From Salminus brasiliensis (lineage: Eukaryota; Chordata; Actinopteri; Characiformes; Bryconidae), in NCBI RefSeq assembly GCF_030463535.1, contig NC_132892.1, forward strand, positions 31,164,436-31,228,435: a stretch of 64,000 nucleotides of DNA, in the 5' to 3' direction. Position numbers and translations under genes: made by a program. The notes beneath the pieces were generated by a model. It saw nothing but the letters and a program-made list of their open reading frames with translations, was not told the origin of the DNA and ran no database searches. This document shows, one piece after another, positions 32,694 to 62,800 of this stretch. Position 1 is the first letter of the stretch. Every line of letters starts with the position of its first letter.

Positions 32694-35600
32694 GGAACAC
32701 GGCTCCCTGTTGCATTATCGATCTGCTGTGTTGTGTAGAGGGGTTGGCTGACGGCAGCACTGCTGTGCATCCATTATTAATGAAGCGTTCAGTGTCAACA
32801 GCCCAGAGCGTTTAGTCACGCCACGACGCGGAGGCTCAGTCTGCCCACCCAAATACACCAGAGACGCCCGGGAGACTTACACACACTCCACTGGTCTGAA
32901 ACGTGTGAGTTCATCAGACGTGATGATGAGTTTAATATTGAGACAGCGGCTATACACCGACAGTCCCACCTGAGTACAGCACAGGTTTACACTCACCTAG
33001 AATTGATCCTGGGCAGTGACACAGGCTAATGTGTTAATGAAATGAGGTGCTGTGTGTGTTAGTGTGTGTCATTACATTACACAGTAAAACCCCCAACCTC
33101 AGCTTGTTACCGTGTTACAGGTGACTGAGCACTGCACCTCATTGAATACACACCTCCAGTGTAAATTGTCCAGCTATCTGTGTTCATTATACTCCCTGGT
33201 GTTGATTCAGTACTATAAGTATTCATTCAGCGCTGTGTTCTTGCATTCAGTACTGTACCTGTTCATTCAGTACTGTATGTATTCATCAGTACTGTACCTG
33301 TTCATTTAGTACTGTACCTGTTCATTCAGTACTGTATGTATTCATCAGTACTGTACCTGTTCATTTAGTACTGTACCTGTTCATTTAGTACTGTACCTGT
33401 TCATTCAGTACTGTAGATATTCATTCAGTACTGTACCTGTTCATTTAGTACTGTAGCTGTTCACTCAGTACTATACCTGTTCATTCAGTACTATACCTGT
33501 TCATTCAGTGCTGTAGATATTCATTCAGTACTGTACCTGTTCATTCAATACTATACCTATTCATTCAGTACTATACCTATTCATTCAGTACTATACCTGT
33601 TCATTCAATACTATACCTATTCATTCAGTACTATACCTATTCATTTAGTACTGTAGCTGTTCACTCAGTACTATACCTGTTCATTCAGTACTGTAGATAT
33701 TCATTCAATACTATACCTATTCATTCAGTACTATACCTATTCATTCAGTACTGTAGCTGTTCATTCAGTAGTGTACCTATTCATTCAGTGCTGTAGCTGT
33801 TCATTCAGTAGTGTACCTATTCATTCAGTAGTGTACCTGTTCATTCAGTACTGTAGATACTCATTCAGTACTGTACCTATTCATTCAGTACTATACCTGT
33901 TCATTCAGTACTGTAGATATTCATTCAGTACTGTACCTGTTCATTCAGTACTGTAGATATTCATTCAGTACTGTACCTGTTCATTCAGTACTATACCTGT
34001 TCATTCAGTACTGTAGATATTCATTCAGTACTGTGCCTGTTCATTCAGTACTATACCTGTTCATTCAGTACTGTATGTATTCATCAGTACTGTACCTGTT
34101 CATTTAGTACTGTACCTGTTCATTCAGTACTGTAGATATTCATTCAGTACTGTACCTGTTCATTTAGTACTGTAGCTGTTCACTCAGTACTATACCTGTT
34201 CATTCAGTACTATACCTGTTCATTCAGTGCTGTAGATATTCATTCAGTACTGTACCTGTTCATTCAATACTATACCTATTCATTCAGTACTATACCTATT
34301 CATTCAATACTATACCTATTCATTCAGTACTATACCTATTCATTTAGTACTGTAGCTGTTCACTCAGTACTATACCTGTTCATTCAGTACTGTAGATATT
34401 CATTCAATACTATACCTATTCATTCAGTACTATACCTATTCATTCAGTACTGTAGCTGTTCATTCAGTAGTGTACCTATTCATTCAGTGCTGTAGCTGTT
34501 CATTCAGTAGTGTACCTATTCATTCAGTACTGTATGTCTTCATCAGTACTGTACCTGTTCATTTAGTACTGTATGTATTCATCAGTACTGTACCTGTTCA
34601 TTCAGTACTGTATGTATTCATCAGTACTGTACCTGTTCATTTAGTACTGTACCTGTTCATTCAGTACTATACCTGTTCATTCAGTACTGTATGTATTCAT
34701 CAGTACTGTACCTGTTCATTCAGTACTGTATGTATTCATCAGTACTGTACCTGTTCATTTAGTACTGTACCTGTTCATTCAGTACTGTAGATATTCATTC
34801 AGTACTGTACCTATTCATTCAGTACTGTAGCTGTTCATTCAGTAGTGTACCTATTCATTCAGTGCTGTAGCTGTTCATTCAGTAGTGTACCTATTCATTC
34901 AGTACTATACCTATTCATTTAGTACTGTAGCTGTTCACTCAGTACTATACCTGTTCATTCAGTACTGTAGATATTCATTCAATACTATACCTATTCATTC
35001 AGTACTATACCTATTCATTCAGTGCTGTAACTGTTCATTCAGTAGTGTACCTATTCATTCAGTACTGTAGCTGTTCATTCAGTAGTGTACCTATTCATTC
35101 AGTGCTGTAGCTGTTCATTCAGTAGTATACCTATTCATTCAGTGCTGTAGCTGTTCATTCAGTAGTGTACCTATTCATTTAGTACTGTAGCTGTTCATTC
35201 AGTACTATACCTATTCATTCAGTACTGTACCTGTTCATTCAGTACTATACCTGTTCATTCAGTACTGTATGTCTTCATCAGTACTGTACCTGTTCATTCA
35301 GTACTGTACCTGTTCATTCAGTACTGTAGCTGTTCATTCAGTACTATACCTATTCATTCAGTACTGTACCTGTTCATTCAGTACTGTACCTATTCATTGT
35401 CAGTGAGGGTGAGAGTGCAGAGTGTTCATTCTGACGAGGTTAGGGTGGATGTAGACCAGCTCGATCTGCCAGGCCCGTTCAGCATCAGTGCTACGACTAC
35501 AAGCCGTTCACCAAACACCCATGGAGCTCTGTTGGGTTCCTGCCTCGTTTCCTCACGTTCGGTGTCGCTGCGGTTTAGCAGAACATGATTAATGACCAGG

Positions 35601-37933
35601 TCCAGAGCGGTGGATCCAGGTGCAGCTGCATCAGCTGCAATTCAAGGTTAATGTAACGGAGATCGTGAGACACCTGCTGCTCCAGGGTGTCTTCTGAAAT
35701 CAAGGGTATCAATAGAGAGTTTGTCCCGCTTCACTGCATTAACAGCCCCCTGTCCTTCAGGAAAGACTTTACACTAGATGTTAGGATTTGGTTGCATTCA
35801 GCCACAGTAGAGCATCAGTGAGGTCAGGTCAGGTGCTGATGGTCACTCCACATCCCAACGCTGGGGGGGTTCATATTCCCTAGAGGGGGTTTGTACTCTA
35901 GTCAACACTTGTCATTGGGCAAGGTAAGCGCAAGCTCATGGGCAGCTGCTCCAGAGCATCCTGTTCAGCAGAAGGATCAGTAAGTAAAGGTCACCTCTCA
36001 ATCCCAATCCGGATTTCCTTGATGACACTGTGTATTCATCCTATGTGTGTGTGTGTTACAGTTCCATAACCTGCAGGAGCTGAGACACAGCGCCTCACTG
36101 GCCAATAAAGTGTTCATCCAGCGAGATTATTCAGAGGGAACCGTCTGCAAGTTCCAGACCAAATTCCCCTCCGAACTGGACAGCAGGGTGAGTCAGTGCG
36201 AGTGTGAGAGAGGGAGAGAGAGACTTATTTAATCGTATTATTTAATTATATTATTGATTATTAGTATTTATTGTCCAGTTCCCTTCAACTGTTGTTTAAC
36301 TACCTTTATTGATCACTTATAATCCTGTAATAAACTCAGGTTCCAGCTCCCTGATCAGTCTTAGTTTAGACTTAGTTTATATGATTCTATGATATATAAT
36401 CAATATCTTCATTATTAACATGTTAATGAACTGTGTTGGTCAGTGTATGTGTGTGTGGTTCTGTTCATGGACACAATGGGGGGGGGACATGAAGACAGCT
36501 ACAAAAACACAGTGAGAGAGAGATAGAGAGAACGAGGCAGAGAGACAGTGAAAGTAAGAGAGACAGAGACAGTGTGAGAAAGAGAGGCAGACAGAGAGAG
36601 ACAGTGAAAGTAAGAGAGGCAGACAGAGACAGTGTGAGAAAGAGAGGCAGACAGAGAGAGACAGAGACAGTGTGAGAAAGAGAGGCAGACAGAGAGAGAC
36701 AGTGAAAGTAAGAGAGACAGACAGAGACAGTGTGAGAAAGAGAGGCAGACAGAGAGAGACAGTGAAAGTAAGAGAGACAGACAGAGACAGTGTGAGAAAG
36801 AGAGGCAGACAGAGAGAGACAGTGAAAGTAAGAGAGACAGTGTGAGAAAGAAAGGCAGACAGAGAGAGACAGACAGAGACAGTGTGAGAAAGAGAGGCAG
36901 ACAGACAGAGACAGTGTGAGAAAGAGAGGCAGACAGAGAGAGACAGTGAAAGTAAGAGAGAGAGACAGTGAAAGTAAGAGAGGCAGACAGAGAGAGACAG
37001 TGAAAGTAAGAGAGGCAGACAGAGAGAAACAGTGAAAGTAAGAGAGACAGACAAAGACAGTGTGAGAAAGAGAGGCAGACAGAGAGAGACAGTGAAAGTA
37101 AGAGAGGCAGACAGAGAGAAACAGTGAAAGTAAGAGAGACAGACAAAGACAGTGTGAGAAAGAGAGGCAGACAGAGAGACAGTGAAAGTAAGAGAGGCAG
37201 ACAGTGAAAGTAAGAGAGACAGACAGAGACAGTGTGAGAAAGAGAGGCAGACAGAGAGACAGTGAAAGTAAGAGAGGCAGACAGAGAGAGACAGTGAAAG
37301 TAAGAGAGAGAGACAGTGAAAGTAAGAGAGGCAGACAGAGAGAGACAGTGAAAGTAAGAGAGAGAGACAGTGAAAGTAAGAGAGGCAGACAGAGAGAGAC
37401 AGTGAAAGTAAGAGAGACAGACAGAGACAGTGTGAGAAAGAGAGGCAGACAGAGAGAGACAGAGACAGTGTGAGAAAGAGAGGCAGACAGAGAGAGACAG
37501 TGAAAGTAAGAGAGACAGACAGAGACAGTGTGAGAAAGAGAGGCAGACAGAGAGAGACAGTGAAAGTAAGAGAGAGAGACAGTGTGAGAAAGAGAGGCAG
37601 ACAGAGAGAGACAGTGAAAGTAAGAGAGACAGAGACAGTGTGAGAAAGAGAGGCAGACAGACAGAGACAGTGTAGGAAAGAGAGGCAGACAGAGAGAGAC
37701 AGTGAAAGTAAGAGAGACAGTGTGAGAAAGAGAGGCAGACAGAGAGAGACAGTGAAAGTAAGAGAGAGAGACAGTGAAAGTAAGAGAGATAGTGAAAGAA
37801 CGAGAGGCACCTCCAAAGAGAGACAGTAAGAGAAAGAGAGATAGTGAAAGAACGAGAGGCACCTCCAAAGAGAGACAGTAAGAGAAAGAGACAGAGACAG
37901 ACAGACCGTGGGAGCAAGAGAGGCATATTTAGT

Positions 37934-38632: not shown

Positions 38633-39929
38633 CTTGTGTAGCCCCTGTAGAGAAGAAGTACTGCCAATAGAATAGGACTCTCTGGAGCAGATAAACATGA
38701 GCCTACTGGACCATGCTGCCTAACGCCAGGCATGGACTAGAGGGGTATAAAGATCCCCTGTATTGAGAAGCAATGGAGCAGTGGGAGAACTGTTCTCTGG
38801 AATGATGAACGGTGGAGCTTCATCCAGTACTTTTGGGATGACTTGAGGGCTGGATCCAACATCCTGACCTCACTAATGCTGCTTTTGTCACTGAATGCAA
38901 TCAACTCCTCACAGCAATGCTCCTCCAAAATAGTAGAAAGTCTTCTTCCCTGGACAGTAGAGACAGTTACTCCAACAAAAGCAGGAGAAACTCTTTTAAT
39001 ACCATTGATTTCAGAAGAACCACTGAATGAAGCAGGCGTCCCAATACTTTTGTCCATATAGTGTATAACAGTAAAGTCAATAGGGAAGTGAACAGTTTCC
39101 CTTCTTGTATAAATTTACCATTCTGGAGATTCTTCAGAATTCCCTCCTGTTGTGATGCATCCTGATTGGCCGGCTGATCTGATATCTGCTATGTGATTGG
39201 ACAGATTGAGAAGACTCTGTTTGAGGACACGGTGAAGACGTTAAATAACTACTACGCGGAGGCCGAGAAGATTGGAGGCCACTCCTACCTGGAGGGCTGC
39301 CTGGCCTGCATCACCGCCTACCTCATCTTCCTGTGCATGGAGACACGCTACGAAAAGGTAGATGTATAAATTGGCGCATCTCGGAAGAACAGGAGCTGCG
39401 TCTGTGGCCCAGGCGTCTAGACGTCTGCTCCAGCACCAACACCAGAACGTCCTCACCCAGAGAAATGGCTCGGTTTTGCAGCTTTGTTGAAGCAGAAACA
39501 TTGGATTCTCTTGGCTAAATTAGCTCCTAAGCTAACACCTTATCTGATAGTCTCGCAAATACCTGATGCGTCCGCTTCACTGAAACCTCATAACCAAGTT
39601 TAGCAGACGTCTGGACGTCTGATTCAACGCCTTCAACCACAGACACAGCTCCTTTTCTTCTTTGGATGTGGTTAAGGTTACATAGCCTGTTATAATGTTG
39701 GGTTAGCACAGCTAGCTTTTGAAAAGGGGTGTGGCAGAATAAGGTGGATAACATGATTCAGGTGTAAGTGGACTGTAAATGTAAATGTGTGTGTGTGTGT
39801 GTGTGTGTGTGCAGGTCCTGAAGAAGATCTCACGGTATATTCAAGAGCAGAACGAGAAGATTTACGCTCCCAGAGGCCTGCTCATTACTGACCCTATAGA
39901 GCGGGGCATGAGGGTTGTATCCTTTCACT

Positions 39930-47772: not shown

Positions 47773-47888
47773 TCAAGCGCCTGGATATGTGATTTCCATC
47801 ACTGTGTTCATATCAGCTGGCATAACAGGGCGGGTCAGAGTGCGGCCATCCGGCCAGTAGACTTCAACCTTGGTGGCCTGGTCAGATC
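47773..47888 (-). CDS. crtac1: crtac1 terminal exon
   Basis: Encodes SDQATKVEVYWPDGRTLTRP and MPADMNTVMEITYPGA then TGA. The human protein continues past ILYP into the EGF-like domain; here the frame stops three codons after YP. Acceptor TTTCCAG. Confidence 0.93.
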
Positions 47889-50800
47889 CTGGAAACCAAT
47901 GAAAGCAGAAGTGAGGATTAGAGCAGGTGTAGGTGTGTTATACCTGCATTAGAGCAGGTGTAGGTGTGTTATACCTGCATTAGAGCGGGTGTAGGTGTGT
48001 TTTACCTGTATTAGAGCGGGTGTAGGTGTGTTATACCTGTATTAGAGCAGGTGTAGGTGTGTTATACCTGCATTAGAGCGGGTGTAGGTGTGTTATACCT
48101 GCATTAGAGCAGGTGTAGGTGTGTTATACCTGCATAAGAGCAGGTGTAGGTGTGTTATACCTGCATTAGAGCGGGTGTAGGTGTTATACCTGTATTAGAG
48201 CAGGTGTAGGTGTGTTTTACCTGTATTAGAGCAGGTGTAGGTGTGTTATACCTGCATTAGAGCGGGTGTAGGTGTGTTATACCTGTATTAGAGCAGGTGT
48301 AGGTGTGTTATAACTGTATTAGAGCAGGTGTAGGTGTGTTAGACCTGCATTAGAGCGGGTGTAGGTGTGTTATACCTGCATTAGAGCGGGTGTAGGTGTG
48401 TTATACCTGCATTAGAGCAGGTGTAGGTGTGTTATACCTGCATAAGAGCAGGTGTAGGTGTGTTATACCTGCATTAGAGCGGGTGTAGGTGTTATACCTG
48501 TATTAGAGCAGGTGTAGGTGTGTTATACCTGTATTAGAGCAGGTGTAGGTGTGTTTTACCTGTATTAGAGCAGGTGTAGGTGTGTTTTACCTGCATTAGA
48601 GCAGGTGTAGGTGTGTTTTACCTGCATTAGAGCAGGTGTAGGTGTGTTATACCTGCATTAGAGCGGGTGTAGGTGTGTTATACCTGTATTAGAGCAGGTG
48701 TAGGTGTGTTATAACTGCATTAGAGCGGGTGTAGGTGTGTTATACCTGTATTAGAGCGGGTGTAGGTGTGTTATACCTGCATTAGAGCGGGTGTATGTGT
48801 GTTTTACCTGTATTAGAGCGGGTGTAGGTGTGTTATACCTGCATTAGAGCAGGTGTAGGAGTGTTTTACCTGCATTAGAGCAGGTGTAGGTGTGTTATAC
48901 CTGTATTAGAGCGGGTGTAGGTGTGTTATACCTGCATTAGAGCAGGTGTAGGTGTGTTTTACCTGTATTAGAGCAGGTGTAGGTGTGTTATACCTGCATT
49001 AGAGCGGGTGTAGGTGTGTTATACCTGTATTAGAGCAGGTGTAGGTGTGTTATACCTGTATTAGAGCAGGTGTAGGTGTGTTATACCTGCATTAGAGCGG
49101 GTGTAGGTGTGTTATACCTGTATTAGAGCGGGTGTAGGAGTGTTTTACCTGTATTAGAGCGGGTGTAGGTGTGTTATACCTGCATTAGAGCAGGTGTAGG
49201 TGTGTTTTACCTGTATTAGAGCAGGTGTAGGTGTGTTATACCTGTATTAGAGCGGGTGTAGGTGTGTTATACCTGTATTAGAGCAGGTGTAGGAGTGTTT
49301 TACCTGTATTAGAGCAGGTGTAGGTGTGTTATGCCTGCATTAGAGCAGGTGTAGGTGTGTTATACCTGTATTAGAGCAGGTGTAGGTGTGTTTTACCTGT
49401 ATTAGAGCAGGTGTAGGTGTGTTTTACCTGTATTAGAGCAGGTGTAGGTGTGTTATACCTGTATTAGAGCAGGTGTAGGTGTGTTTTACCTGTATTAGAG
49501 CAGGTGTAGGTGTGTTATACCTGTATTAGAGCAGGTGTAGGTGTGTTTTACCTGCATTAGAGCGGGTGTAGGTGTGTTATGCCTGCATTAGAGCGGGTGT
49601 AGGTGTGTTATACCTGTATTAGAGCGGGTGTAGGTGTGTTATACCTGTATTAGAGCAGGTGTAGGTGTGTTTTACCTGCATTAGAGCAGGTGTAGGTGTG
49701 TTTTACCTGCATTAGAGCAGGTGTAGGTGTGTTATATTTGTGTTAGAGCAGGTGGTGTGTTTTCTTACCCAGTCCAAAGTGAGCCACTGGTTCCATCTCA
49801 CACAGGTATCCAGATCCTCCATCAATGATGCGTGTGTGGAGTCCGCTCTGTTTAGTGTGTATCACCACCTTGGCCCCGCGAGCAAATGCTCCGAATCGTG
49901 TCCGTGGCATCACCCGCAGCCAGTGATTACTGGAGGCCTGAGGAGAGGTCAGAGCAGTGCAGGTATGGTGATGTAGAGAAAGTGATAAGATGGGCAATAG
50001 GCAGCGTAGCACACCTGCTTGACTGGTTCCCTGTTAATCTACCAGGTACCAGGTTTAATAGCTGGTGACTGGCACCCTCTGCCCTGATTGGCTACCTGTG
50101 TAACTGATGTACCTGTTGGATTTTGTAGACAGAGATGGGCTGGGAGGCGCTCTCCCCGTGAGCCACCAGCAGGTCCAGGTATCCATCGCCATCAAAATCC
50201 ACCACCGTGGCACCTGTTACTCAGATATGACCAGTGAAGCAGTTACATCTGCACTGTACTGCACCGGATATGGACAAAAGTATTGGGACACACATCTTAG
50301 TCACTGACTTGAGGTGTTTCAATAAGTCCTATTGCCAGAGATGTATAAAATCAAGCCCCTAGTCCTGCAGTCTGCCTCAACAACAACAACAAGTCAGCTG
50401 GTGAAATTTCCTCCCTCCTAGATCTTCCTCCATCAGCTGTGAGTGGTGTTATTATTGAACAGTGGAAGAGTTTAGGAGGAACAGCTCACAGAGAGCAGCT
50501 CAGTGTACACCGAGTGTCTGTCAGACCACGTAAAGTTACAGAGCGGGGTCAGGGCCGAGTGCTGAGCTCAGAGCAGAGTGCAGAAAAGCCTCCAACTGAC
50601 CCAATAACTGCAGAGCTCCAGACCTGCTGCTGCTGTTAGAGCTGCAAAGGGTTTAGAATGGGATGTCATGAAAACTTGTGTAGGTGTCCCAATACTTTTG
50701 TCTTTATAGGGTATCTTGAGGCATATAACTGGCCTCACCTGTTCCCCGGCCCTGAGGCTCAGAGGCATCGCCGATGTTCAGCTCAGTGATCGTAGGTTCA

Positions 50801-53800
50801 GCGTTCTGCCTCCTCATAACTCTGAAAAAAACCCATAAACCATCATCAGGTCAGTCAAACACACAACAATATACCTACAGCCATAACATTAGGACCACTG
50901 AGGACATTGATTATCTTCATCTACAGTGGCTCCTGTGAAGGAGTGGACACACTGGACAGCAGGTGAACAGTCAGTTCTTGAAGGTGATGGAGGTGTTGAA
51001 GCAGGAACAATAGAGACACAATAGAGAACCAATGATGTTCTAGATGACTGGAGGGTCAGAACATCTCCAGAACATCTGGCAGGTCTTTTGGGATGTTCCT
51101 GGGGTGTATGCAGTGGTCGGTACCTACCAAAAGTGCTCCAAGGAAGGACTATCAGTGTGGTGGCAAAAGGGGGATCTACGTAATTTTAGCAGTGGTACTA
51201 ATGTTATGGCTGATCGGTGTAAAGTGATTTTTCTCTGGTCCTTTTGCTATCTGTTGCTACGCTAGTTTCTGCTATGCTAATATCACTAACGTCCATGTTT
51301 ACAGCTAACAGTGTCAGTAACCACTTTTATAGATTACTAAACACCTCCACGTACTTTGAGGAGAGTGTTTGATGGCTTGCAGTTAGCAACATGCTAATTA
51401 GCGGCCATAAGCTTCCATTGCTTTCTAGCTACATTAGCCTCGTAGCTCCTGTTTAAAACTAAAGAAGGAAACTTCAGACACCAAATAAATTCAGTGTGAA
51501 TCAGAGTTAATGTAAATTTGTACTGTGACATAACGCTGGGTCCTTAAGTATTTGGACAGGGACTCAGTTTTGGTAATTCTACCTCTGGTATCTATGAAGA
51601 GCTACCAGGTGCAAACTCAAAGCTCAATATCAACTCCAGAGCTTTTATCTCTTTAATATTTCATGAGATGATGAGGGAACACGCCACACCAGCCCATGAA
51701 ACTGCTTATCAGTCAACCGTCCAATTACTTTTGAGCCTGTAAAATCGGTTAATGCAATAGTTTTGTTCAACTCCTTGACTAAAAAGCTTAAAGTCTGAAC
51801 TTTAATCGCATATTGTGTCATTTCAAAGCCATTGAGGTGTCCAAATATTAATGGACCTGGCTGTATTTGTGAGTGGAACATGGTTTCAGGGAGGGTTGAG
51901 ATGAACCTGAAGATCCTGTTGGGTGCGTTTCCTCTGTAAGCGATGTTGTTGAAGAAGACCTCCAGCTGCAGGTCGTTGTCAAAGTCAGCAGCGATGACGG
52001 TGCGGACAGGGGACGGGACAGAGAAGGCCTTTGTGGCAATGTCCTAACACACACACACACACAAACACACACATTAATATTCAGCTTTTACAATACACAT
52101 TTAATTACATGTCCAAATGTTTGTGGACGCCCCTTCTAATGCTACTTTAAGCTGCACCCATTGCTGACACAGATGTGCAAATGCACACACTCACAGCTTG
52201 TCTAGTCCCTGTAGAGAAGAAGTACTGCCAATAGAATAGGACTCTTTGGAGCAGATAAACATCATGACCCTATTGGCACCATGCTGCCTAATGCCAAGCC
52301 AGGTGTGGACTAGAGGGGTATAAATAAAGCCCCCCAGCATTGAGGAGCTGTGGAGCAGTGGAAGAATCCTGACCTCACTAACGCTCTTGTCACTGAATGC
52401 AATCAAATCCTCACAGCAATGCTCCCCCAAAATCTAGTAGAAATCCTTCTTCTGGACAGTAGAGACAGTTACTCCAACAAAAGCAGGATCAACTCTTTTT
52501 AATGTTCTTGATTTCAGAAGAAACAATGAAGGAGAAGGTGTCCCAATACTTTTGTCCACAGTGTGTGCTATTTTTGTTCATGTGGAAATAATTCAGTAGA
52601 AATGAGAGTGTTACTGTCCACCTCTGGTAGACGGATTCAAAACAACTCACTCAGGCCCAGAGTGGACAGAAGAACAGGACGTCCAGCTCAGTGTCTCACC
52701 TTGAATGTCTTCTGGTCGCTCTGCAGGTATAGGCGATGGGGGCCGTTCCAGTTTCCATAGACAATGTCAATCCTCCCGTCACCATTAAAGTCAGCCAGAG
52801 CCACTCCTCTGCCGTGCTGATAACGGTCTTCTACACCTGACAACAGAAAGAATGCAGATCAATCAATGATCAATACTTGACTGATACCTGAAAAGTCTGG
52901 CAAACACTCTTTAGAGCCACTGTGTAGAATTCAGCCTCTGTCTTGAATACACACACTAGTGAACTGGCGAGCAGCAGGGCAGCCACCTTAGAGCCTGGGG
53001 AGCAACTGGCTGTGAATGCCCCTTCACTCCTGCTGCCCTAACTTCATGCCAGTCAGGGGGATCAAACTGGCAACCTTCTGGTACCACGCTCTCCTCTCAA
53101 ACCCTCAGACCACTGCTAAGTTTCTTCAGTTTTACTGTACGTTCACATCAGCAGCAAGCCTGCAGCAGCCTGCTCAGATCTCACTGGCTGTGGCTCAATT
53201 CTTATACAAGAGCATAGCCTTCAAAAGCTAAGGACTGGATAATAGATGGCTATGGATTGATAGATAAAGGGATCAATGGATAAAGGGGTTAATAAATAAA
53301 GGGATCAATGGATAAAGGGATTGATAGTTAAAAGGATCAATGGATAAAGATATTGATAGATAAAGGGATTGATAGATAAAGGGGTTAATAAATAAAGGGA
53401 TCAATGGATAAAGATATTGATAGATAAAGGGATTGATAGATAAAGGGGTTAATAAATAAAGGGATCAATGGATAAAGATATTGATAAAGGGATTGATAGA
53501 TAAAGGGATCAATGGATAAAGGGTCTGATAGATAAAGGGATTGACAGATAAAGGGATTAATGAATAAAGGGATTGATATATAACAGAATTAATGGATAAA
53601 TGGATTGATAAATAACAGGATTAATGGATAGAGGGACTGACAGATAAAGGGATTAATGAATAAAGGGATTGATATATAACAGAATTAATGGATAAATGGA
53701 TTGATAAATAACGGGATTAATGGATAGAGGGACTGACAGATAAAGGGATTAATGAATAAAGGGATTGATAGATAAAGGGATCAATGGATAAAGGGTCTGA

Positions 53801-56800
53801 TAGATAAAGGGATTGACAGATAAAGGGATTAATGAATAAAGGGATTGATATATAACAGAATTAATGGATAAATGGATTGATAAATAACAGGATTAATGGA
53901 TAGAGGGACTGACAGATAAAGGGATTAATGAATAAAGGGATTGATATATAACAGAATTAATGGATAAATGGATTGATAAATAACGGGATTAATGGATAGA
54001 GGGACTGACAGATAAAGGGATTAATGAATAAAGGGATTGATATATAACAGAATTAATGGATAAATGGATTGATAAATAACGGGATTAATGGATAGAGGGA
54101 TTGATAGATAACGGGATTGATAGATAAAGGGATTTGATAGATAAAGGGATTGATAGATAGAGGGATTGACACTTCTCAACTGTAAGTTAGTTCCATCCCT
54201 CTCACCTGCTTGAGCAGCCATGTCGGTGAAAGTGCCGTCACCATTGTTACGAAACAGGAAGTTGGGTCCATTTTCATTGTCGCAGAAGATATCAGAGCGA
54301 ACGTCATTAAGGATCGGTCCAACCACAACGCCACGCCCCCCTTCAGACAGAAAGACAGAGGGTTGGGAGTTTTGATTGAAAAGCTTACAGTAGTAACGCA
54401 GGTTGAAATGCTAATGGTGTCTGTGGATTTGACGCCCCGCCCCTCTGACCTGTGTACTTGTTGACCCTGGCCTGAGAGGCGACATCAGAGAGAGCGATGA
54501 TGCCCTTAGAAACATCACTGGCAGACTCGTCCATCTCGATCAGTGCATGAGCCCCAACGTTACCCCGAGCGTAGTTAGCCACGTAGATGGAGTAGCGGCC
54601 GGTACCCTACAGCAGAGAGATAAAGGAGGAATGAGGCAAATAAACATGATTAGTAACAGATAATATTAATAATAATATATACAAACATTTTATTTATATA
54701 ATAAAATAATTCAATATTAAATAGTGAAATAAATCATAATAAATAAATAACACACATTCCTGCAGAAACAAATAATATGAAATAATAATAAATGAATAAC
54801 AAAAATAACAATATTTACATAGTGAATAATAAGTGCTAAAATTGAAGGGGTGGAGGGACCAATGGGTAAAAGGATCAATGGATAAATGGATTGATAAATA
54901 AAGGAATTGAAGGATAAAGGGATCAATGGACAAAGGGATTGACAGATAAAGGGATCAATGGATAAAGGGATTTATAGATAAATGGATCAATGGATAAAGG
55001 GATTGACAGATAAAGGGACTGACAGATAAAGGGATCAATGGACAAAGGGATTTATAGATAAAGGGATCAATGGATAAAGGGATTGATAGATAAAGGAATC
55101 AATGGATAAAGAGATCAATGGACAAAGGGATTGACAGATAAAGGGATCAATGGATAAAGGGATTGATGGATAAAGGGACTGATGGATAAAGAGATCAATG
55201 GATAAAGGGATTAATAGATAAAGGAATCAATGGACAAAGGGATTGATAGATAAAGGAATCAATGGATAAAGGGATTAATAGATAAACGAATTAATGGATA
55301 AATGGATTGACAGATAAAGGGATTGATAGATAAAGGGATCAATGGATAAAGAAATTGATAGATAGAGGGATTGACAGATAGAGGGATGGATAGATAGAGG
55401 GATTGATAGATAAAGGAATCAGTGGATAAAGGGATTGGTAGATAGAGTGGTTGACAGATAAAGGGATTGATAGAGGAATTGACAGATAGAGGGACTGACT
55501 GATAGAGGGATTGATAGATAGCGGGATTGACAGATAGAGGGATTGATAGATAGAGGGATTAATAGATAGAGGGATTGACAGATAGAGGGATTAATATATA
55601 AAGGGATTGACAGATAGAGGGATTAATAGATAAAGGGATTGATAGATAGAGGGATTGACAGATAGAGGGATTGACAGATAGAGGGATGGACGGATAGAGG
55701 GATTGATAGATAGAGGGATTGATAGATAGAGGGATTGACAGATAGAGGGATTGACAGATAGAGGGATGGACGGATAGAGGGATTGATAGATAGAGGGATT
55801 GATAGATAGAGGGATTGACAGATAGAGGGATGGACGGATAGAGGGATTGATAGATAGAGGGATTGACAGATAGAGGGATTGACAGATAGAGGGATGGACG
55901 GATAGAGGGATTGATAGATAGAGGGATTGACAGATAGAGGGATGGATAGATAGAGGGATTGACAGATAGAGGGATGGATAGATAGAGGGATTGACAGATA
56001 GAGGGATTGATAGATAGAGGGATTGACAGATAGAGGGATGGATAGATAGAGGGATTGATAGATAGAGGGATTGACAGATAGAGGGATTGACAGATAGAGG
56101 GATTGACAGATAGAGGGATTGACAGATAGAGGGATGGACGGATAGAGGGATTGATAGATAGAGGGATTGACAGATAGAGGGATGGATAGATAGAGGGATT
56201 GACAGATAGAGGGATGGATAGATAGAGGGATTGACAGATAGAGGGATGGATAGATAGAGGGATTGACAGATAGAGGGATGGATAGATAGAGGGATTGACA
56301 GATAGAGGGATTGATAGATAGAGGGATTGACAGATAGAGGGATGGATAGATAGAGGGATTGACAGATAGAGGGATTGATAGATAGAGGGATTGACAGATA
56401 GAGGGATTGATAGAGGGATTGACAGATAGAGGGATGGACGGATAGATATGTTACCCTTCTGTCCACACATGCTACAGAGCGCCCCGCCATGCGACTGGCC
56501 ACTCCCCGGCGCACGTTGATGTCATCACTCAGCAGGTCCTCGAAGCGGCCGTTACGGAACTTAAACAGCTTATCGTAGTACGACGCCTGACCTTTAGAGA
56601 AACGCCTTAATTAATACAAGCAAAGACTCAAAAGTCCAGTTTGGACAGAACCTGAACTATAGATGTACCTGAAAAGGCATTGTTAGTATTGAGGAAGTAG
56701 ATCTCCTCCCTGCCGTCCCCGTCCACGTCGCAGGCAGTCACTCCGATAGCGTTGCCCTCCGGGTCTCTGAGGCTGTAGTACGGAGAGTTGCGGTCATCTA

Positions 56801-57370
56801 CCGCGATATTCACCAGCCTCTTCTGATCACGGTCATACTTCAGAACCAGGTTTGGGCCGTTGTACCTGAAAACAAATGATTAAAATCCACAGTGGTCAGT
56901 AAACTGGATCAGCGTGTGGAAACAGAGCTTCCTGTTGCTACCATGTAACTATCAGTGTATAAAACAGCTCTGTGCTGTCTTTACTGTTGGACACTATATT
57001 GACAAAAGTAATGGGACACCAGCTCAAACTTGGAGCCTGTAGCATTGTAGCATTTCTTCACGAAGAATATATAGTGTTATTTATACTACCCCTCCTTCAT
57101 CCATGTCCCACTAGGGGGGCTCAACCCATAGATTTAATACTTATGGTCTAATACATGAACTTGTAGTGTCAGATCAAACATGCATATTCACCCTGCCACC
57201 ACCACCTCCAGATCTCCATCACCATCCACATCCGTCACTGCCATCCCATAGTTCCGCTGAGTGGGGTTGTGGAATTCATGAGGAGGGAGAACCGTGTCTG
57301 TGACGGCCGAGAACATGGAGTGGACTCCGGAGAGACTCAGGCAGAGAAGGAACGTCCAAAAGACCCACAT
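47773..57370 (-). CDS. crtac1: crtac1: cartilage acidic protein 1, short form, 515 aa
   Basis: Joined minus-strand CDS: 57370-57192, 56865-56669, 56591-56455, 54606-54450, 54340-54206, 52836-52700, 52043-51907, 50821-50739, 50213-50113, 49937-49769, 47888-47773 (1548 nt, all GT-AG and in phase). The product has a signal peptide (MWVFWTFLLCLSLSGVHS), Ca-binding FG-GAP/VCBS-like repeats with DVDGDGDLE, DVDGDGREE, DFNGDGRID and DFDGDGYLD, and an ASPIC/UnbV domain (LRVMPRTRFGAFARGAKV, GYLCEMEPVAHFGLG). The human protein (661 aa) continues into a cysteine-rich EGF-like domain; here a TGA follows EITYPGA directly. It should be a secreted extracellular-matrix protein; human CRTAC1B/LOTUS antagonises the Nogo receptor. 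ATG choice: first in-frame ATG of exon 2, followed by a good signal peptide. Confidence 0.96.
47920..49740 (-). repeat. 31-bp minisatellite made of GT...AG units, crtac1 intron 11
   Basis: About 58 units. On the crtac1 sense strand each unit runs from GTATAACACACC (or GTAAAACACACC) through ACACCTGCTCTAAT to a terminal GCAG or ACAG. Unit borders are AG|GT in nearly every copy. The array reaches the exon 11 donor on one side and lies 33 bases from the exon 12 acceptor on the other, so it is essentially the whole intron. Confidence 0.95.
49769..49937 (-). CDS. crtac1: crtac1 exon 11 (ASPIC/UnbV domain)
   Basis: Encodes ASSNHWLRVMPRTRFGAFAR and IIDGGSGYLCEMEPVAHFGL. The donor GTAAGA runs directly into a 1.8-kb array of 31-bp units. 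Confidence 0.96.
50113..50213 (-). CDS. crtac1: crtac1 exon 10
   Basis: Encodes GATVVDFDGDGYLDLLVAHG and ESASQPISVYKIQQ. Donor GTACAT. Confidence 0.95.
50270..50712 (-). mobile_element. MITE family B, opposite-orientation copy
   Basis: Starts ATATGGACAAAAGTATTGGG and ends GTGTCCCAATACTTTTGTCT. Interior matches the reverse complement of 26806-27235. It occupies crtac1 intron 9, ending 26 bases from exon 9. Confidence 0.8.
50739..50821 (-). CDS. crtac1: crtac1 exon 9
   Basis: Encodes VMRRQNAEPTITELNIGDAS and EPQGRGT, matching human IRREHGDPLIEELNPGDALE. Acceptor TTTTTTCAG. Confidence 0.93.
50880..51490. other. crtac1 intron 8, repeat-like, no gene
   Basis: Contains a MITE-like block starting CTACAGCCATAACATTAGGACCACTGA-type sequence (from about 50875) to GTTATGGCTGATCGGTGTAAA (about 51225), and a family E copy (51290-51490). 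No exon seen. Confidence 0.55.
51907..52043 (-). CDS. crtac1: crtac1 exon 8
   Basis: Encodes DIATKAFSVPSPVRTVIAAD and FDNDLQLEVFFNNIAYRGNA. The acceptor is (TG)n then TTAG; the donor is AG|GTTCAT, the weakest in the gene, but the phase and the next exon require it. Confidence 0.92.
52112..52562 (-). mobile_element. MITE family A, full-length reverse copy
   Basis: Begins TGTCCAAATGTTTGTGGACG and ends GTGTCCCAATACTTTTGTCC. Lies in crtac1 intron 7. Confidence 0.85.
52700..52836 (-). CDS. crtac1: crtac1 exon 7
   Basis: Encodes VEDRYQHGRGVALADFNGDG and RIDIVYGNWNGPHRLYLQ, with a canonical DxDxDG-like FG-GAP loop. Confidence 0.96.
53240..54160. repeat. 16-bp minisatellite, crtac1 intron 6
   Basis: About 57 units of GATAAAGGGATTGATA and variants. 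The same repeat family occupies intron 4 (54840-56445). Confidence 0.94.
54206..54340 (-). CDS. crtac1: crtac1 exon 6
   Basis: Encodes GRGVVVGPILNDVRSDIFCD and NENGPNFLFRNNGDGTFTDM. Donor GTGAGA. Confidence 0.96.
54450..54606 (-). CDS. crtac1: crtac1 exon 5
   Basis: Encodes GTGRYSIYVANYARGNVGAH through ASQARVNKYT. Acceptor GCTGTAG, donor GTCAGA. Confidence 0.96.
54840..56445. repeat. 16-bp minisatellite, crtac1 intron 4
   Basis: About 100 units; the low-coordinate half has GATAAAGGGATCAATG forms, the high-coordinate half is homogenised to GATAGAGGGATTGACA. On the sense strand it is pyrimidine-rich. Frames of 303 and 307 codons (SLYLSIPLSI type) are by-products. Confidence 0.95.
56455..56591 (-). 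CDS. crtac1: crtac1 exon 4
   Basis: Encodes QASYYDKLFKFRNGRFEDLL and GVASRMAGRSVACVDRR. Donor GGTAACATA; a 1.6-kb 16-bp repeat array begins within about seven bases of the junction. Confidence 0.94.
56669..56865 (-). CDS. crtac1: crtac1 exon 3
   Basis: Encodes YNGPNLVLKYDRDQKRLVNI through DVDGDGREEIYFLNTNNAFS, nearly identical to the human segment. Confidence 0.96.
56993..57190 (+). mobile_element. MITE-like fragment in crtac1 intron 2
   Basis: Starts TATATTGACAAAAGTAATGG then GACACCAGCTC, resembling MITE termini of families A and B, but the interior differs. Right end not defined; the block reaches the exon 2 donor. Confidence 0.45.
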
Positions 57371-57376
57371 CTTCAC
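57192..57376 (-). CDS. crtac1: crtac1 exon 2 (signal peptide)
   Basis: Acceptor GTGTGGCAG, six leader bases, then ATG at 57370. Encodes residues 1-59 and most of G60: signal peptide, then MFSAVTDTVLPPHEFHNPTQ and the first DVDGDGDLE repeat. Donor GTGAAT. Confidence 0.94.
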
Positions 57377-57639
57377 CTGCCACACACAGGAGAGAAGGCC
57401 GTGATCTCGGCTGTGATTCGGTGGTAGTGGATCATCACAGCAGCATTATGTTACTCACGGTAACACACAGCGCCGAGTGGGCAACTGTGTTTATACAGCA
57501 ATTTTATAAAGTTAACATAAGCAACATTAGCCGGGAAGCACCGAACATTGTCTCAAACTTACGTTTTTAGTGTAGCCTGTTTCTTACGCCACAGAAAGTA
57601 GTTCCAGATGGTGCAGAGAAATGTGTTGTTATATAGCAG

Positions 57640-58230
57640 AACACCTTTCAACTAGATCCAAGATTATAATATATACAATAATACCCATAATATTTAGGAA
57701 TTTTTTAGGAATATATTATAGGTATAATGTATTTAGTAATCTAGAATTACAATGCAGAACATATACATTGTGTAGCATTCATGGTACTCTAATACCATGC
57801 CGAGTCTAATAACCTCTAATAACCTCTAAAAGCTACATAACAGGATCTTATTAAATAGCATGGTCATGGATCAGCTGCCTGATGTCTGGGACAATGTTTT
57901 ACCAGATGGAATTGTGCTTTCTAAATATATATATATTAATATATATATATTAAAGGTCCATTCTGGTGGAGGGATACATAGAGGGTGGTTGGGTGTAAAA
58001 GTAGTTCCAAAAGAAAACTTATAATTTTACCATTTTATCATCATCACCATCCCATATAAAACCATAAAACACATAAACAAACTGTACGGTTCAAAACTGT
58101 AAAACGTGTAAAACACATGGTGGTGGGAGTATCACTGTTGGGTTCAGATGGGTACAGTTCAACCACTAAATTCTGGAGAAATTATGGGAAATAAGCAGAA
58201 TCAGACACTGGACATTAATGTGACATCAGA
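57640..58230. other. crtac1 intron 1, AT-rich, no gene
   Basis: AT-rich unique-looking sequence with a short TATATATAT palindrome at 57927-57951. No exon seen. Confidence 0.5.
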
Positions 58231-58239
58231 AAGATGACT

Positions 58240-59240
58240 GACTTGCAATGTCAGAGAGATTTTTGGTAGGAAATCGAAGTCCCATATCTCTCAAACACCA
58301 ACACTGAGTTGACTTCAGATGTTGACGTTAGACAGACGTTAAATTTTGGTAGGAAATCAAAGTCCCATATCTCTCAAACACCAACATTGAGTTGACATCA
58401 GACGTGGACGTTAGACAGACGTTAAATTTTGGTAGGAAATCAAAGTCCCATATCTGTCAAACACCAACATTGAGTTGACATCAGACGTTGACGTTAGACA
58501 GACGTTGAATTTTGGTAGGAAATCAATGTCACATATCTCTCAAACACCAACATTGAGTTGACATCAGACGTTGACGTTAGACAGACGTTGAATTTTGGTA
58601 GGAAATCAATGTCACATATCTCTCAAACACCAACATTGAGTTGACATCAGACGTTGACGTTAGACAGACGTTGAATTTTGGTAGGAAATCAATGTCACAT
58701 ATCTCTCAAACACCAACATTGAGTTGACATCAGACGTGGACGTTAGACAGACGTTAAATTTTGGTAGGAAATCAAAGTCACATATCTGTCAAACACCAAC
58801 ATTAACTTGACATCAGACGTTGACGTTAGACAGACGTTGAATTTTGGTAAGAAATCAAAGTCATATATCTGTCAAACACCAACATTGAGTTGACATCAGA
58901 CGTGGACGTTAGACAGACGTTAAATTTTGGTAGGAAATCAAAGTCACATATCCATCAAACACCAACACTGAGTTGACATCAGACGTCGACGTTAGACAGA
59001 CGTTAAATTTTGGTAGGAAATCAAAGTCACATATCCATCAAACACCAACACTGAGTTGACATCAGACGTCGACGTTAGACAGACGTTAAATTTTGGTAGG
59101 AAATCAAAGTCACATATCTGTCAAACACCAACATTAACTTTACATCAGACGTTGACGTTAGACAGACGTTGAATTTTGGTAGGAAATCAACGTCACATAT
59201 CCATCAAACACCAACATTGAGTTGACATAAAGCTCCAACA
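58240..59240. repeat. 83-bp tandem repeat, crtac1 intron 1
   Basis: About 12 units with ACATCAGACGTTGACGTTAG, GTTGAATTTTGGTAGGAAAT and CTCAAACACCAACATTGAGT. Related but diverged sequence continues to about 59560. Confidence 0.93.
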
Positions 59241-59826
59241 TTAGCCAGATGTTGAATTGTGGTTACCTAACACACTGACTGACGACATATACATTTTATG
59301 TTGTGTGGACCTCAACATTACGTTGGGTTTAGGTCACCATACCTCACAACCAAATGCTGGTATTATACGTCAGTATGACGTTGGCTTGTGACGTCTGGAA
59401 GATGTTGGGTTTTGGTTACTGAACATCGCAACTCAAAACCAGCAGAACATCAACGTCAGCTGCCTGCTGTCACTGTTCTATCTCCAACTGACTGACTGGT
59501 GGTGGACATAGGACTTTGTCCAGACATTGAATTTTTGGTCACCTGAGGTCACGACCTGCATTCAAGCAGCTGGTTGGTGGCCAATGGTCGGTGCAATGAT
59601 ATTATCACTAATATAGTAATAATATATATTATATATAGAGACAGTATATTGAGCATTGCATTGTAAGTAAATACTAAATATATATACATATAATAATTTA
59701 TGCTCCATGCACACACACACAGTAAAGGCTAGCTTACTAAAGCTAATAAACCCCCAGGTTAAAGACTCAGGCTTACTACGCTGTTATTAACATTATTAGT
59801 GTGTGTTAAAGCTGTGCATTACTTAC

Positions 59827-59870
59827 GTGTGTGTGTGTGTGTGTGTGTTTCCAGCTCGTCCAGGCTGCAG
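59827..59870 (-). other. crtac1: Probable non-coding first exon of crtac1
   Basis: On the minus strand GACGAGCTGGAA runs into a (CA)n tract and ends ACACAC|GTAAGT, a consensus donor (59826-59821). The 5' end at about 59870 is inferred from a TATA box 30 bp upstream. It would splice to exon 2 at 57376. Confidence 0.6.
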
Positions 59871-59896
59871 CTGTTGTAATTTCACCTCGACGCCTG

Positions 59897-59985
59897 TTTT
59901 TATACCGCAGCCTCCACCTTACACAACTCCAGCAGCTCCGCTTTACACAAGCGCTTGTGTAAGCCGGCGTCCAATCACGTCGCGG
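59897..59985 (-). promoter_or_regulatory. crtac1: crtac1 core promoter: TATA box, CCAAT box, palindrome
   Basis: TATAAAA on the minus strand at 59903-59897; a 20-bp perfect palindrome TTACACAAGCGCTTGTGTAA at 59943-59962; an inverted CCAAT motif (plus-strand CCAATCAC at 59970-59977). A second CCAAT (ACCAATCAGC) lies near 60010. Nearby CpGs add support. Confidence 0.6.
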
Positions 59986-60499
59986 TGATTTAAATATTCC
60001 GGCGGCTCAACCAATCAGCTGTCTCTCCCGCTCACAGAGGCGTGAACTGACCCAACAGGCAGCTCCACTCTGCTGTACTGAGCCCAGAGGCGCCTGCAGA
60101 GGTGGGCCGAGGAGCCTAAAATGACACAGGAGTAAAAAAGTATAATTACTTCAATTAAATAATGACCCAATTAGAGGTCGAAAAAAAAGAAAACACCCAT
60201 AGTGACCCATAATAAACTCCAGTGGGTGTGAAAACGTATGTGCTGAGTTACTAATAGAGCGCGTCCAGCATCTGTCAGTCAGTATAGGCCTGAAGACTTG
60301 GAGTTCTGTATTTTTGGGGCCTGTTGGTCTAAAATAAATGGAGAAGCTTCAACGTGAGAGACGTGAGCAACAGTAAAGATCAACCTGCGTGCCGAGCTGT
60401 AATTTGTTTTTCTATATTTGCATATTTATGTTTATTAAAGATAAATATTTAGTCAAATTCTGTACCACCCATAGATAAAGCTATTAAATTAACCAGTTA

Positions 60500-61335
60500 A
60501 CCAACAGAATCTGTCTGGCAATGGAAAGCAGGCTAGAAGGTCTCCAGCGAACCATAGTAAGAGTCATTATCCATCATAGGAGAAAATTTGGAACCTCATG
60601 AACCTTCCCAGGAGTGGCCGGCCCTTTGAAATTTCACCAACAGCACATTAACGACTCGTCCAGGAGCTCACAAAAGAACCTAGACGAACATCTAAATTAG
60701 AAAAACTATTTAGGGGAAATATTACATGGACTGATGAATCAAGGATCTCACAAAAAGCAAACGTTGTATTCCGCCATTAGAACATCATTCAAACTGTCAA
60801 ACATGGTGGTGGTAGTGTGATGGAAGTGAGACATCCTACCTCTCCTGCAGCTTGGGAGTAGCGCCCACGAATTAAATACTGTATCCCGAAAATTCAGAAT
60901 TCTCTTGCTTGGTGTTACCTGGCTGAACTGTGGGATGTTTGTTAATGTCTGCCTGTCAGTTTGTGACTTAAAGCTCAAGCGCAGTTGGGTTATGCAGCAG
61001 GACAATGATCCAAAGCACACAAGCAGGTCCAGCTACGAATGGTTCAAAATAAACAAAATGAGGATGGCCAAGTCAAAGTTCTGACTCGAATCCTACTGGG
61101 CTTCTTTGGAAGATCTTAAATGGTCAGATCATGAATCAATAGGTTTTGAATAAATATTCATTTTCAATAAATGCACTGACCTTCTAAAAGCAGCACTGGG
61201 TGTTTACTCGTGTTGTCTTTATCTCATATTAATTTTAAATTAGCTGGATTATTTGAAACATTTCATTCTGACAAATTTTAAACTTAAAATCCGGGAGAAA
61301 TCTGAAAGAGGGCAAATACTTTTCACAGCATGGTA
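60500..61335 (+). mobile_element. Decayed Tc1-like transposase
   Basis: Plus-strand phrases of the family are visible: TGGACTGATGAATCAAGGAT (about 60728), AACATGGTGGTGGTAGTGTG (about 60800) and a frame [12 protein letters not shown] at about 60990. Frames are broken by stops and insertions and the right half ends at ATACTTTTCACAGCATGG. Inactive. Confidence 0.82.
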
Positions 61336-61544
61336 GCACAATAAATTTAACCCCTTCTAAAAAGGAATCAGGAGGTAAAAGGGGGTGGTTTTGCTAGCTC
61401 ATGTACGTTAATAGAAACCTCAAATGCTAACTTATAACGATAATAAGTGCTGTTGTCGTCATTACGGTGGTACACTATGCGTAAAATCCCTCTTTTACAT
61501 TTCAGAGCACAGGATCTGCTATTCTGCAGTACCTCTGGAGCCGA

Positions 61545-61670
61545 GAAGGCCTTGCTCAAGAGTGGCAGATTAGCAAACCTGGACATCAAACCTATAGACC
61601 TGTAATCAACAACCCAGTCCTACAACCCAGCGCAGTAACCCCGCACTGACCACTGAGCCACCACTGCCCT
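61545..61670 (+). mobile_element. Decayed SINE-like fragment
   Basis: GCCTTGCTCAAGAGTGGCAG, a gap, and CACTGAGCCACCACTGCCC resemble the block at 13255-13430, strongly diverged. Confidence 0.45.
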
Positions 61671-61679
61671 CAACCACGT

Positions 61680-62418
61680 CTTTCTCTTTCTACTTAATCC
61701 AGTAATTAAACACGACGCTGCTTGCTTTCTCACGGAGAGCTGCAGCTGCGTAAGAAGACCCCCCTGTCTTTGAGCTTGAGTGGGACAGTTTTTTGAGAGG
61801 TAAATTGGGACGATGAGAGAGAGCTATCAACAGCTTGTTATCCAGAGCTGATGAAAGTCTGCACACATGTTGGCAATGTCACTCCCTGTCAGGACCTGCT
61901 TATTATAAAAGCACAGAATTAGTGTCAATTAGTGTTTACTGCCAGGAGCTAAATTTGAAGGACTTATATAACAAATAACTGTAAAAATGCAGATTATTAT
62001 CCCATAAATATAGACCAGTGGAGGTATTTAACAGGTGAACATTTATCTTTAATATTTTTTTCATTTAAACATGAAGACTGGGCACAAATAAATAAATAAA
62101 TAAAAAAGAAATAAAAGTTAGCAATTGCTCTACAGGAAACAACTTTAAAATGGTAATTAGTTGCACATTTTAGACACATTGTTTTTTAATTGAACATATT
62201 GGAAAATACCAAACACATGCTATTCCTTTTTCACATCCCACATTTCCTATTTTTTGCAATATGTTAAAATATTATATAATATTATTAATATTAGACATAC
62301 AATTACTACATAATAAGTATTAGTGCTAATCATTACTATTATTATTATTACTACTAGGCCTGCTTCTACTACTAATAGTATGTTTATAGTTTGTAATAAT
62401 ATATTATAAACATTACAT

Positions 62419-62457
<39 letters not shown>

Positions 62458-62620
62458 TTAAAATGCATATCAAGACATGTTTGCAGTTTTTATCCCCCTT
62501 TGATTGGTATCATTTTATGCATTTTTTTATTTGTAAGTTTATTTATTTTTGCAGAAATCCACGTAACGTTGCCAAGGAAACCAGACCCTGAGGCTGCACC
62601 CGCATCCTGTTAGCCTCAGT
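61680..62620. other. Intergenic AT-rich DNA, no gene
   Basis: Contains an (ATTT)n microsatellite at 62417-62460. No exon on either strand. Confidence 0.6.
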
Positions 62621-62800
62621 GGTAGCTAGCTAACGTTGACGTAGATATACACGCCGTGTTACATATTTAACGAATAAAACATGCATAATGAGATCTATTT
62701 CTAGGCTATATGATTAATATAATCTATACCGATAAATATATATATATAAAAATATACAAATTAAACTCAGAACAGCAAAGCGTAGCTAGCTAGCTAAACA

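Follow-up and report, generated by a model that had tools for sequence, protein, structure and literature searches.

A 31-bp minisatellite in register with the splice donor of a crtac1 intron, probably derived from the intron's own donor-to-branch segment

An intron of crtac1 in the window (the whole 64,000-nt stretch of Salminus brasiliensis DNA that was analysed) consists, from its donor to within 28 nt of its end, of a 31-bp tandem repeat whose units nearly all meet as CAG|GT. The explanation that we prefer, and regard as likely, is that the array is a donor-anchored minisatellite which arose from the donor-to-branch segment of a short intron, and that the intron is removed by one-step splicing, its internal borders being silent or little used.

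The gene was located by tblastn with a human CRTAC1 protein as query. A chain of 11 coding exons was obtained on the minus strand, from a signal-peptide exon near 57313 to a stop near 47773. Splice sites were picked to keep the reading frame open, and the donors chosen for introns i2, i4 and i7 are weak and less certain. FG-GAP families were detected by Pfam in both scanned minus frames (2/3) of 47801-62800, and Erf4 on the plus strand was the sole Pfam family in six frames of 17701-47700. The array-bearing intron, i10 (47889..49768, minus strand), is 1880 nt long, in phase 1, and separates coding exons 10 and 11 when the signal-peptide exon is taken as the first; the earlier note had called it the 11th intron, and in this count it is the 10th. 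The reading frame across i10 joins HFGL-G-SDQATKVEVYWPDG. The upstream coding exon occupies 49769..49937 and the downstream one 47773..47888 (both minus strand), the latter terminating in TGA (47773-47775). The last coding exon, 47782-47888, ends YPGA-stop, and no match on the minus strand was obtained for the EGF-like end of the human query. Together these two observations suggest that the gene here may be a short form of CRTAC1.

TRF reported the 31-bp unit in 59.4 copies with 93% matches (47917-49754), a head-to-tail array with a unit of tens of bp and high identity, as in an intronic minisatellite. From the authentic donor GTAAGA onward, i10 divides into 60 segments in unbroken register plus a 28-nt tail. 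All of the following features are on the minus strand. The authentic donor is TGG|GTAAGA (49763..49771), and the intron begins at 49768. Unit 1 (49738..49768; 31 nt) starts on this donor, is diverged, and ends at a junction that reads CAA|AT and so does not have AG|GT. Unit 2 (49707..49737; 31 nt) starts ATATAA, and its end is the first CAG|GT border. These are followed by 57 complete, homogenised units (47944..49706), 55 of 31 nt and two of 29 nt, and by a last partial unit of 27 nt (47917..47943) that ends in CTAAT. The branch consensus is yUnAy, and the authentic acceptor probably uses this last CTAAT (47917..47921) as its branch site. The motif starts 33 nt ahead of the intron end, the distance given in the earlier note, and is followed by no AG before the terminal CAG. 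The intron closes with a pyrimidine-rich, non-repeat tail of 28 nt, CCTCACTTCTGCTTTCATTGGTTTCCAG (47889..47916), whose acceptor is TTTCCAG|GAT.

The junctions were counted along the array. AG|GT, read as CAG|GT, was found at 54 of 59, in agreement with the earlier description of a string of CAG|GT-bordered 31-bp units in a crtac1 intron. The 58 junctions preceded by CAG comprised 36 CAG|GTATAA, 17 CAG|GTAAAA, one CAG|GTCTAA, two CAG|GC and two CAG|TT. That units occasionally lose their GT, as had been claimed, is correct, but there are five such junctions (two GC, two TT, and the one between units 1 and 2) and not the two that were named. Unit 1 has CTAAC as its branch-like motif and two of the 31-nt units have CTTAT; all the rest have CTAAT.

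The unit contains no exon or acceptor sequence. The tail of i10 has no similarity to it (20% of 2000 shuffles reach the tail's score), and neither do the last 31 nt of the upstream exon (85% of 2000 shuffles score as high). Since the exon end and the acceptor tail are both non-repeat, the array lies, and appears to have grown, between fixed functional ends; a donor copy stands at one of its limits and a copy of the likely branch site at the other. The segment that starts on the authentic donor can be aligned with the unit if two compensating 3-nt indels are allowed, with a local score of 35 against a maximum of 24 in 2000 shuffles. Unit 1 is a diverged homologue of the repeat unit, and the real donor stands in exact 31-nt register with the array, so the alignment of donor and unit that had been pointed out before was upheld. 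The exact register, the alignment of the donor segment and the last unit's supply of the branch site make the donor-to-branch segment the likely seed of the array. The earlier note had already proposed this origin, and the AG|GT borders point the same way.

According to this proposal, the process would have begun in a short pre-existing crtac1 intron, in which a stretch of about 31 nt from donor to branch point was duplicated. Slippage or unequal exchange would then have amplified it to about 60 copies, with homogenisation within the array and degeneration at its donor edge. The unit would open with GTA because its seed was the donor, and would hold CTAAT because the seed extended to the branch site. 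As AG stands before each later GT, the borders resemble recursive sites. An intron with a single unit pair would measure 86 nt, made up of unit 1, the 27-nt partial unit and the tail of 28 nt. Splicing would run from the authentic donor to the authentic acceptor in one step, branching at the last CTAAT. The internal borders would be decoys, silent or little used, and the array would be noise to the spliceosome while the authentic ends win. The intron probably preceded the array, because its true acceptor lies outside the repeat. Judged from the anatomy, the seeding order, the ancestral length and the single-step splicing are probably as given here. One observation speaks against the seed model, as the AG that precedes each GT is not derived from the exon, which ends CTGG.

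Eighteen arrays of the window, picked by the analyst and represented by one TRF consensus apiece, were compared, and the i10 array was the only one with AG|GT and CTRAY on one strand. Among the other 17, AGGT was present on one strand in four, for example as CAG|GTACAG at 33200-35398, which would fit an ordinary minisatellite whose AG|GT, CTAAT and expansion up to the donor were all due to chance. We consider this explanation very improbable, since CTRAY was on the same strand in 0 of those 17 arrays and since the unit 1 alignment, beyond all 2000 shuffles, is in exact register with the donor. Outside arrays, 374 AGGT sites were counted on both strands. Fourteen of them score as high as the common borders, both as donor and as acceptor, and none of the 14 is preceded by CTRAY at a distance of 12-45 nt. 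With score cut-offs fixed after the array was seen, the expectation is ~0.005 border-strength AGGT sites per 31-nt unit on one strand, CTRAY not required. The AG|GT copies are not independent, one amplified unit being one event and not 54. At up to three mismatches the unit was found nowhere in the window outside i10 (60 matches, all 47913 to 49755), and it had 0 exact matches in viral_contigs, a collection that is uninformative for a fish intron.

Two other crtac1 introns hold long arrays. In i3 (54607-56454) the array 54881-56446 lies 8 nt from the donor, and in i5 (52837-54205) the array 53254-54169 lies 36 nt from it. Both have a 16-bp unit, and the two units, optimally rotated, are identical at 15 of 16 positions; 0 of 5000 shuffles equalled this. 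The three crtac1 arrays lean to the donor end (joint p = 0.029 under random placement within the intron, with the i10 gap entered as 14 nt, from TRF). No AG|GT occurs in either the i3 or the i5 unit, so arrays near donors need no splice function. Such placement is a habit of crtac1, and the AG|GT layout is particular to the i10 array.

The window is very rich in tandem arrays, with 126 TRF rows, many of them overlapping. An array with an 83-bp unit and 94% matches lies at 58261-59228, upstream of the signal-peptide exon. The array at 33200-35398 consists of ~110 copies of a 20-bp unit. Its borders read CAG|GTACAG on the minus strand, which is antisense to the plus-strand Erf4/golga7-like exons at about 36110-36208 and 39199-39357. 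It is a possible neutral control for AG|GT arrays.

Splice-site scores were calculated with approximate human weights, not with a fish model. As donors, CAG|GTAAAA (17/58 borders) scored 3.21, the authentic donor 3.07 and CAG|GTATAA (36/58) 0.23. The ten real crtac1 donors scored -2.55 to 7.31, and CAG|GTAAAA exceeds seven of them. As acceptors, 53 of the 58 borders scored 3.36 (33 borders) or 2.78 (20), compared with 6.68 for the authentic acceptor; the ten real crtac1 acceptors ranged from -0.6 to 8.08, three of which the common borders beat. The median border acceptor score was attained by 6.4% of 251 other intronic AGs. Because these scores are comparable to those of real sites, the borders are not dismissible by strength. 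For every internal AG, the CTAAT that could serve it stands ~36 nt upstream, in the unit before; the one inside its own unit is too close. The U1 duplex energy was -9.2 for the authentic donor, which has a G at +5, -8.3 for CAG|GTAAAA and -7.2 for CAG|GTATAA. On score, then, the borders would be plausible splice sites but second to the authentic ends, and both the higher acceptor score and the stronger U1 duplex of those ends favour one-step splicing.

If the borders were truly used, as the earlier note considered possible, the array would be a bank of recursive or dual-specific sites, and the intron would leave piecewise via varying CAG|GT borders with the same mRNA at any copy number. We think this unlikely. 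It would fit the AG|GT at 54 of 59 junctions, the CTAAT 36 nt upstream of each internal AG and border strengths near those of real crtac1 sites. In the accessible text of one human study, AGGT sites double as donor and acceptor 3.1-fold above expectation, and repeat-embedded introns with a unit-multiple length are 8.4-fold enriched (PMC10809524). On the other side, i10 is a 1.9 kb intron with strong ends of its own, and its rare mutations strike the GT. A recursive jump would regenerate the donor as TGG|GTATAA (-3.72) or TGG|GTAAAA (-0.74), compared with 3.07 for the authentic TGG|GTAAGA, and a regenerated donor weaker than the one just used would be an extra difficulty for recursion. Most Drosophila ratchet points, as far as the available text of that report goes, regenerate strong donors (PMC8605326). 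The motif Y5+N0-4YAGGT, by which a published lariat study searched for recursive sites according to the part of it available (PMC10156609), has two matches in i10, against 54 AG|GT junctions; with four pyrimidines, one fewer, there are 56 overlapping matches. Many recursive sites from other studies also fail this motif, as listed in table 1 of the same partly available source (PMC10156609). Juxtaposed intronic AG|GT, as in recursive sites, is thus present in the i10 array, and its borders as a class have neither the search motif nor a strong regenerated donor, on these approximate weights.

Partial use is a related possibility, in which the intron would have copied its own donor-branch core ~60 times and would leave at least in part through ~54 dual-specific CAG|GT borders. 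Its lariats would then form a ladder with steps of 31 nt, and copy number would not affect the mRNA. We hold this to be unlikely. If it were true, i10 would offer a natural series for the birth of recursive sites.

The borders might instead leak. The authentic ends would dominate, with occasional cryptic exons of 31k nt or stop-bearing partial retention, and longer alleles would yield less productive crtac1 mRNA. Each inner unit is flanked by AG and, mostly, by GT, as such leakage would need. For inserts of 1-7 included units, a stop codon lay within the insert in 53/57, 54/56, 55/55, 54/54, 53/53, 52/52 and 51/51 placements, so retained units would be predicted to harm. The earlier suggestion that copy number has no effect on the mRNA therefore holds only if every repeat is removed, as 1-7 included units nearly always bring a stop. 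Exons of 31 nt are very short, which speaks against leakage. A parallel in its favour is the human CBS gene, in which a 31-bp VNTR at the exon 13-intron 13 boundary is associated with lower activity at more repeats, as given in the accessible portions of two reports (PMC5188458, PMC2630376). In the amphioxus repeats known as mirages, regular splicing is left undisturbed, in the text available (PMC3087553), which is a point against leakage. On balance we judge leaky borders improbable.

Variation among the units was examined for signs of upkeep. Common variants occupy three unit columns, at positions 4, 19 and 28. Eleven rarer base changes were found in the 55 units of 31 nt, five of them in the three GTA columns of 31 and none in CAG (binomial p = 0.0024; 3/6 when collapsed per column, p = 0.014, post hoc). 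The pattern speaks against upkeep of the donor half, although selection against donors would also fit, and the excess in the GTA columns is to be read with caution because homogenisation spreads changes and the test was post hoc. CAG never varies among the 55 units of 31 nt; either homogenisation or constraint could account for this. As in ordinary minisatellites, divergence is greatest in the edge unit, and the inner units share a few variants that recur in shuffled combination. Duplication of multi-unit blocks was also considered. No run of more than four units recurs; the longest, shared by units 40-43 and 50-53, contains rare unit types. However, 86 of 1000 shuffles gave runs of four or more, and the idea was set aside as weak.

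Concealment of the borders in hairpins was considered as a mechanism and dropped. The unit can fold as ACCUG-CUCUAAUA-CAGGU, which places the branch motif in the loop (z = -2.08; 4/200 shuffles as stable). The predicted openness of the GU averaged 0.026 and 0.036 at the borders, compared with 0.354 at the authentic donor and 0.017 to 0.447 at the other real crtac1 donors. Shuffled units bury the GU about equally, because the RNA is G-poor: 18-37% of 300 shuffles per allele were at or below the observed value, and a second method was similar. In 20 of the 55 units of 31 nt, T19 is replaced by C, which breaks one stem pair; A30 is invariant, and no other change compensates. The association of the weak-stem C19 with a stem-strengthening G28 was not significant (p = 0.16; p = 0.06 including the two 29-nt units), nor was that of strong donors with an intact stem (p = 0.23).

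With dozens of near-identical AG|GT borders that fall into a few donor alleles (GTATAA, GTAAAA, GTCTAA, GC, TT), this one intron amounts to a natural titration. The intron could show how strong internal sites must be for use, and whether array length alters splicing. It further suggests how, by simple amplification of its own donor-branch segment, a plain intron may become filled with recursive-like sites.

Literature searches, with most subscription papers outside their reach, found no fish intron of this kind. The human 6-16/G1P3 minisatellite reportedly supplies multiple splice donors from a 12-bp unit at an exon end, and in yielding several donor sites it would resemble i10; we know of no branch motif or AG|GT layout in it. 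Tandem arrays or duplication of AGGT are also said to give rise to introns (Zhuo 2007). Such introns would share the tandem duplication of AG|GT with i10, but both of their ends would be repeat-derived, whereas the acceptor tail of i10 is not repeat, by the shuffle comparison given above.

Recursive sites and ratchet points have the juxtaposed intronic AG|GT of i10 (PMC10156609, PMC8605326). In the accessible text of these papers they are single or few and are supported by lariats or junctions, whereas the candidate borders of i10 number dozens and would regenerate weak donors. The human UBC gene has an array of dual-specific splice sites in which AG|GT bounds each tandem unit, as at the unit limits in i10 (PMC10809524). 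According to the part of this source available, the UBC units are coding, its intron is a multiple of the unit, and both intron ends lie in the repeat; in i10 the acceptor lies outside the repeat, and 1880/31 is 60.6.

The nearest known systems are the amphioxus mirages and the human CBS 31-bp repeat. The CBS VNTR, c.1444_1467+7(16_21), shares with i10 a 31-bp unit at an exon-intron boundary in the donor position; unlike i10, its unit has 24 exon bases by its name, and in the portions of the reports available it is present in 16-21 units and varies among people (PMC2630376, PMC5188458). Mirages are minisatellites that sit on the intron-exon boundaries of several genes, Adh3 and globin among them, and their AG/GT repeats leave regular splicing undisturbed on the authors' RT-PCR and cited Adh3 data, according to the accessible text (PMC3087553, PMC3902484). 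By analogy, and within what that text covers, this would support one-step splicing of i10. Like i10, with its 54 of 59 junctions, mirages are tandem repeats at a splice boundary with AG/GT signals in many units. The Adh3 units are 10-72 bp, with exchange within the cluster and the cluster edge excluded, likewise in i10. Mirage units, as described in the same partial sources, span the boundary and include exon sequence, whereas the i10 unit starts exactly at the donor and has none, and i10 differs further in its ~60 units with a branch-site motif in each. The i10 array is thus best described as a variant of these systems in which no exon sequence was copied.
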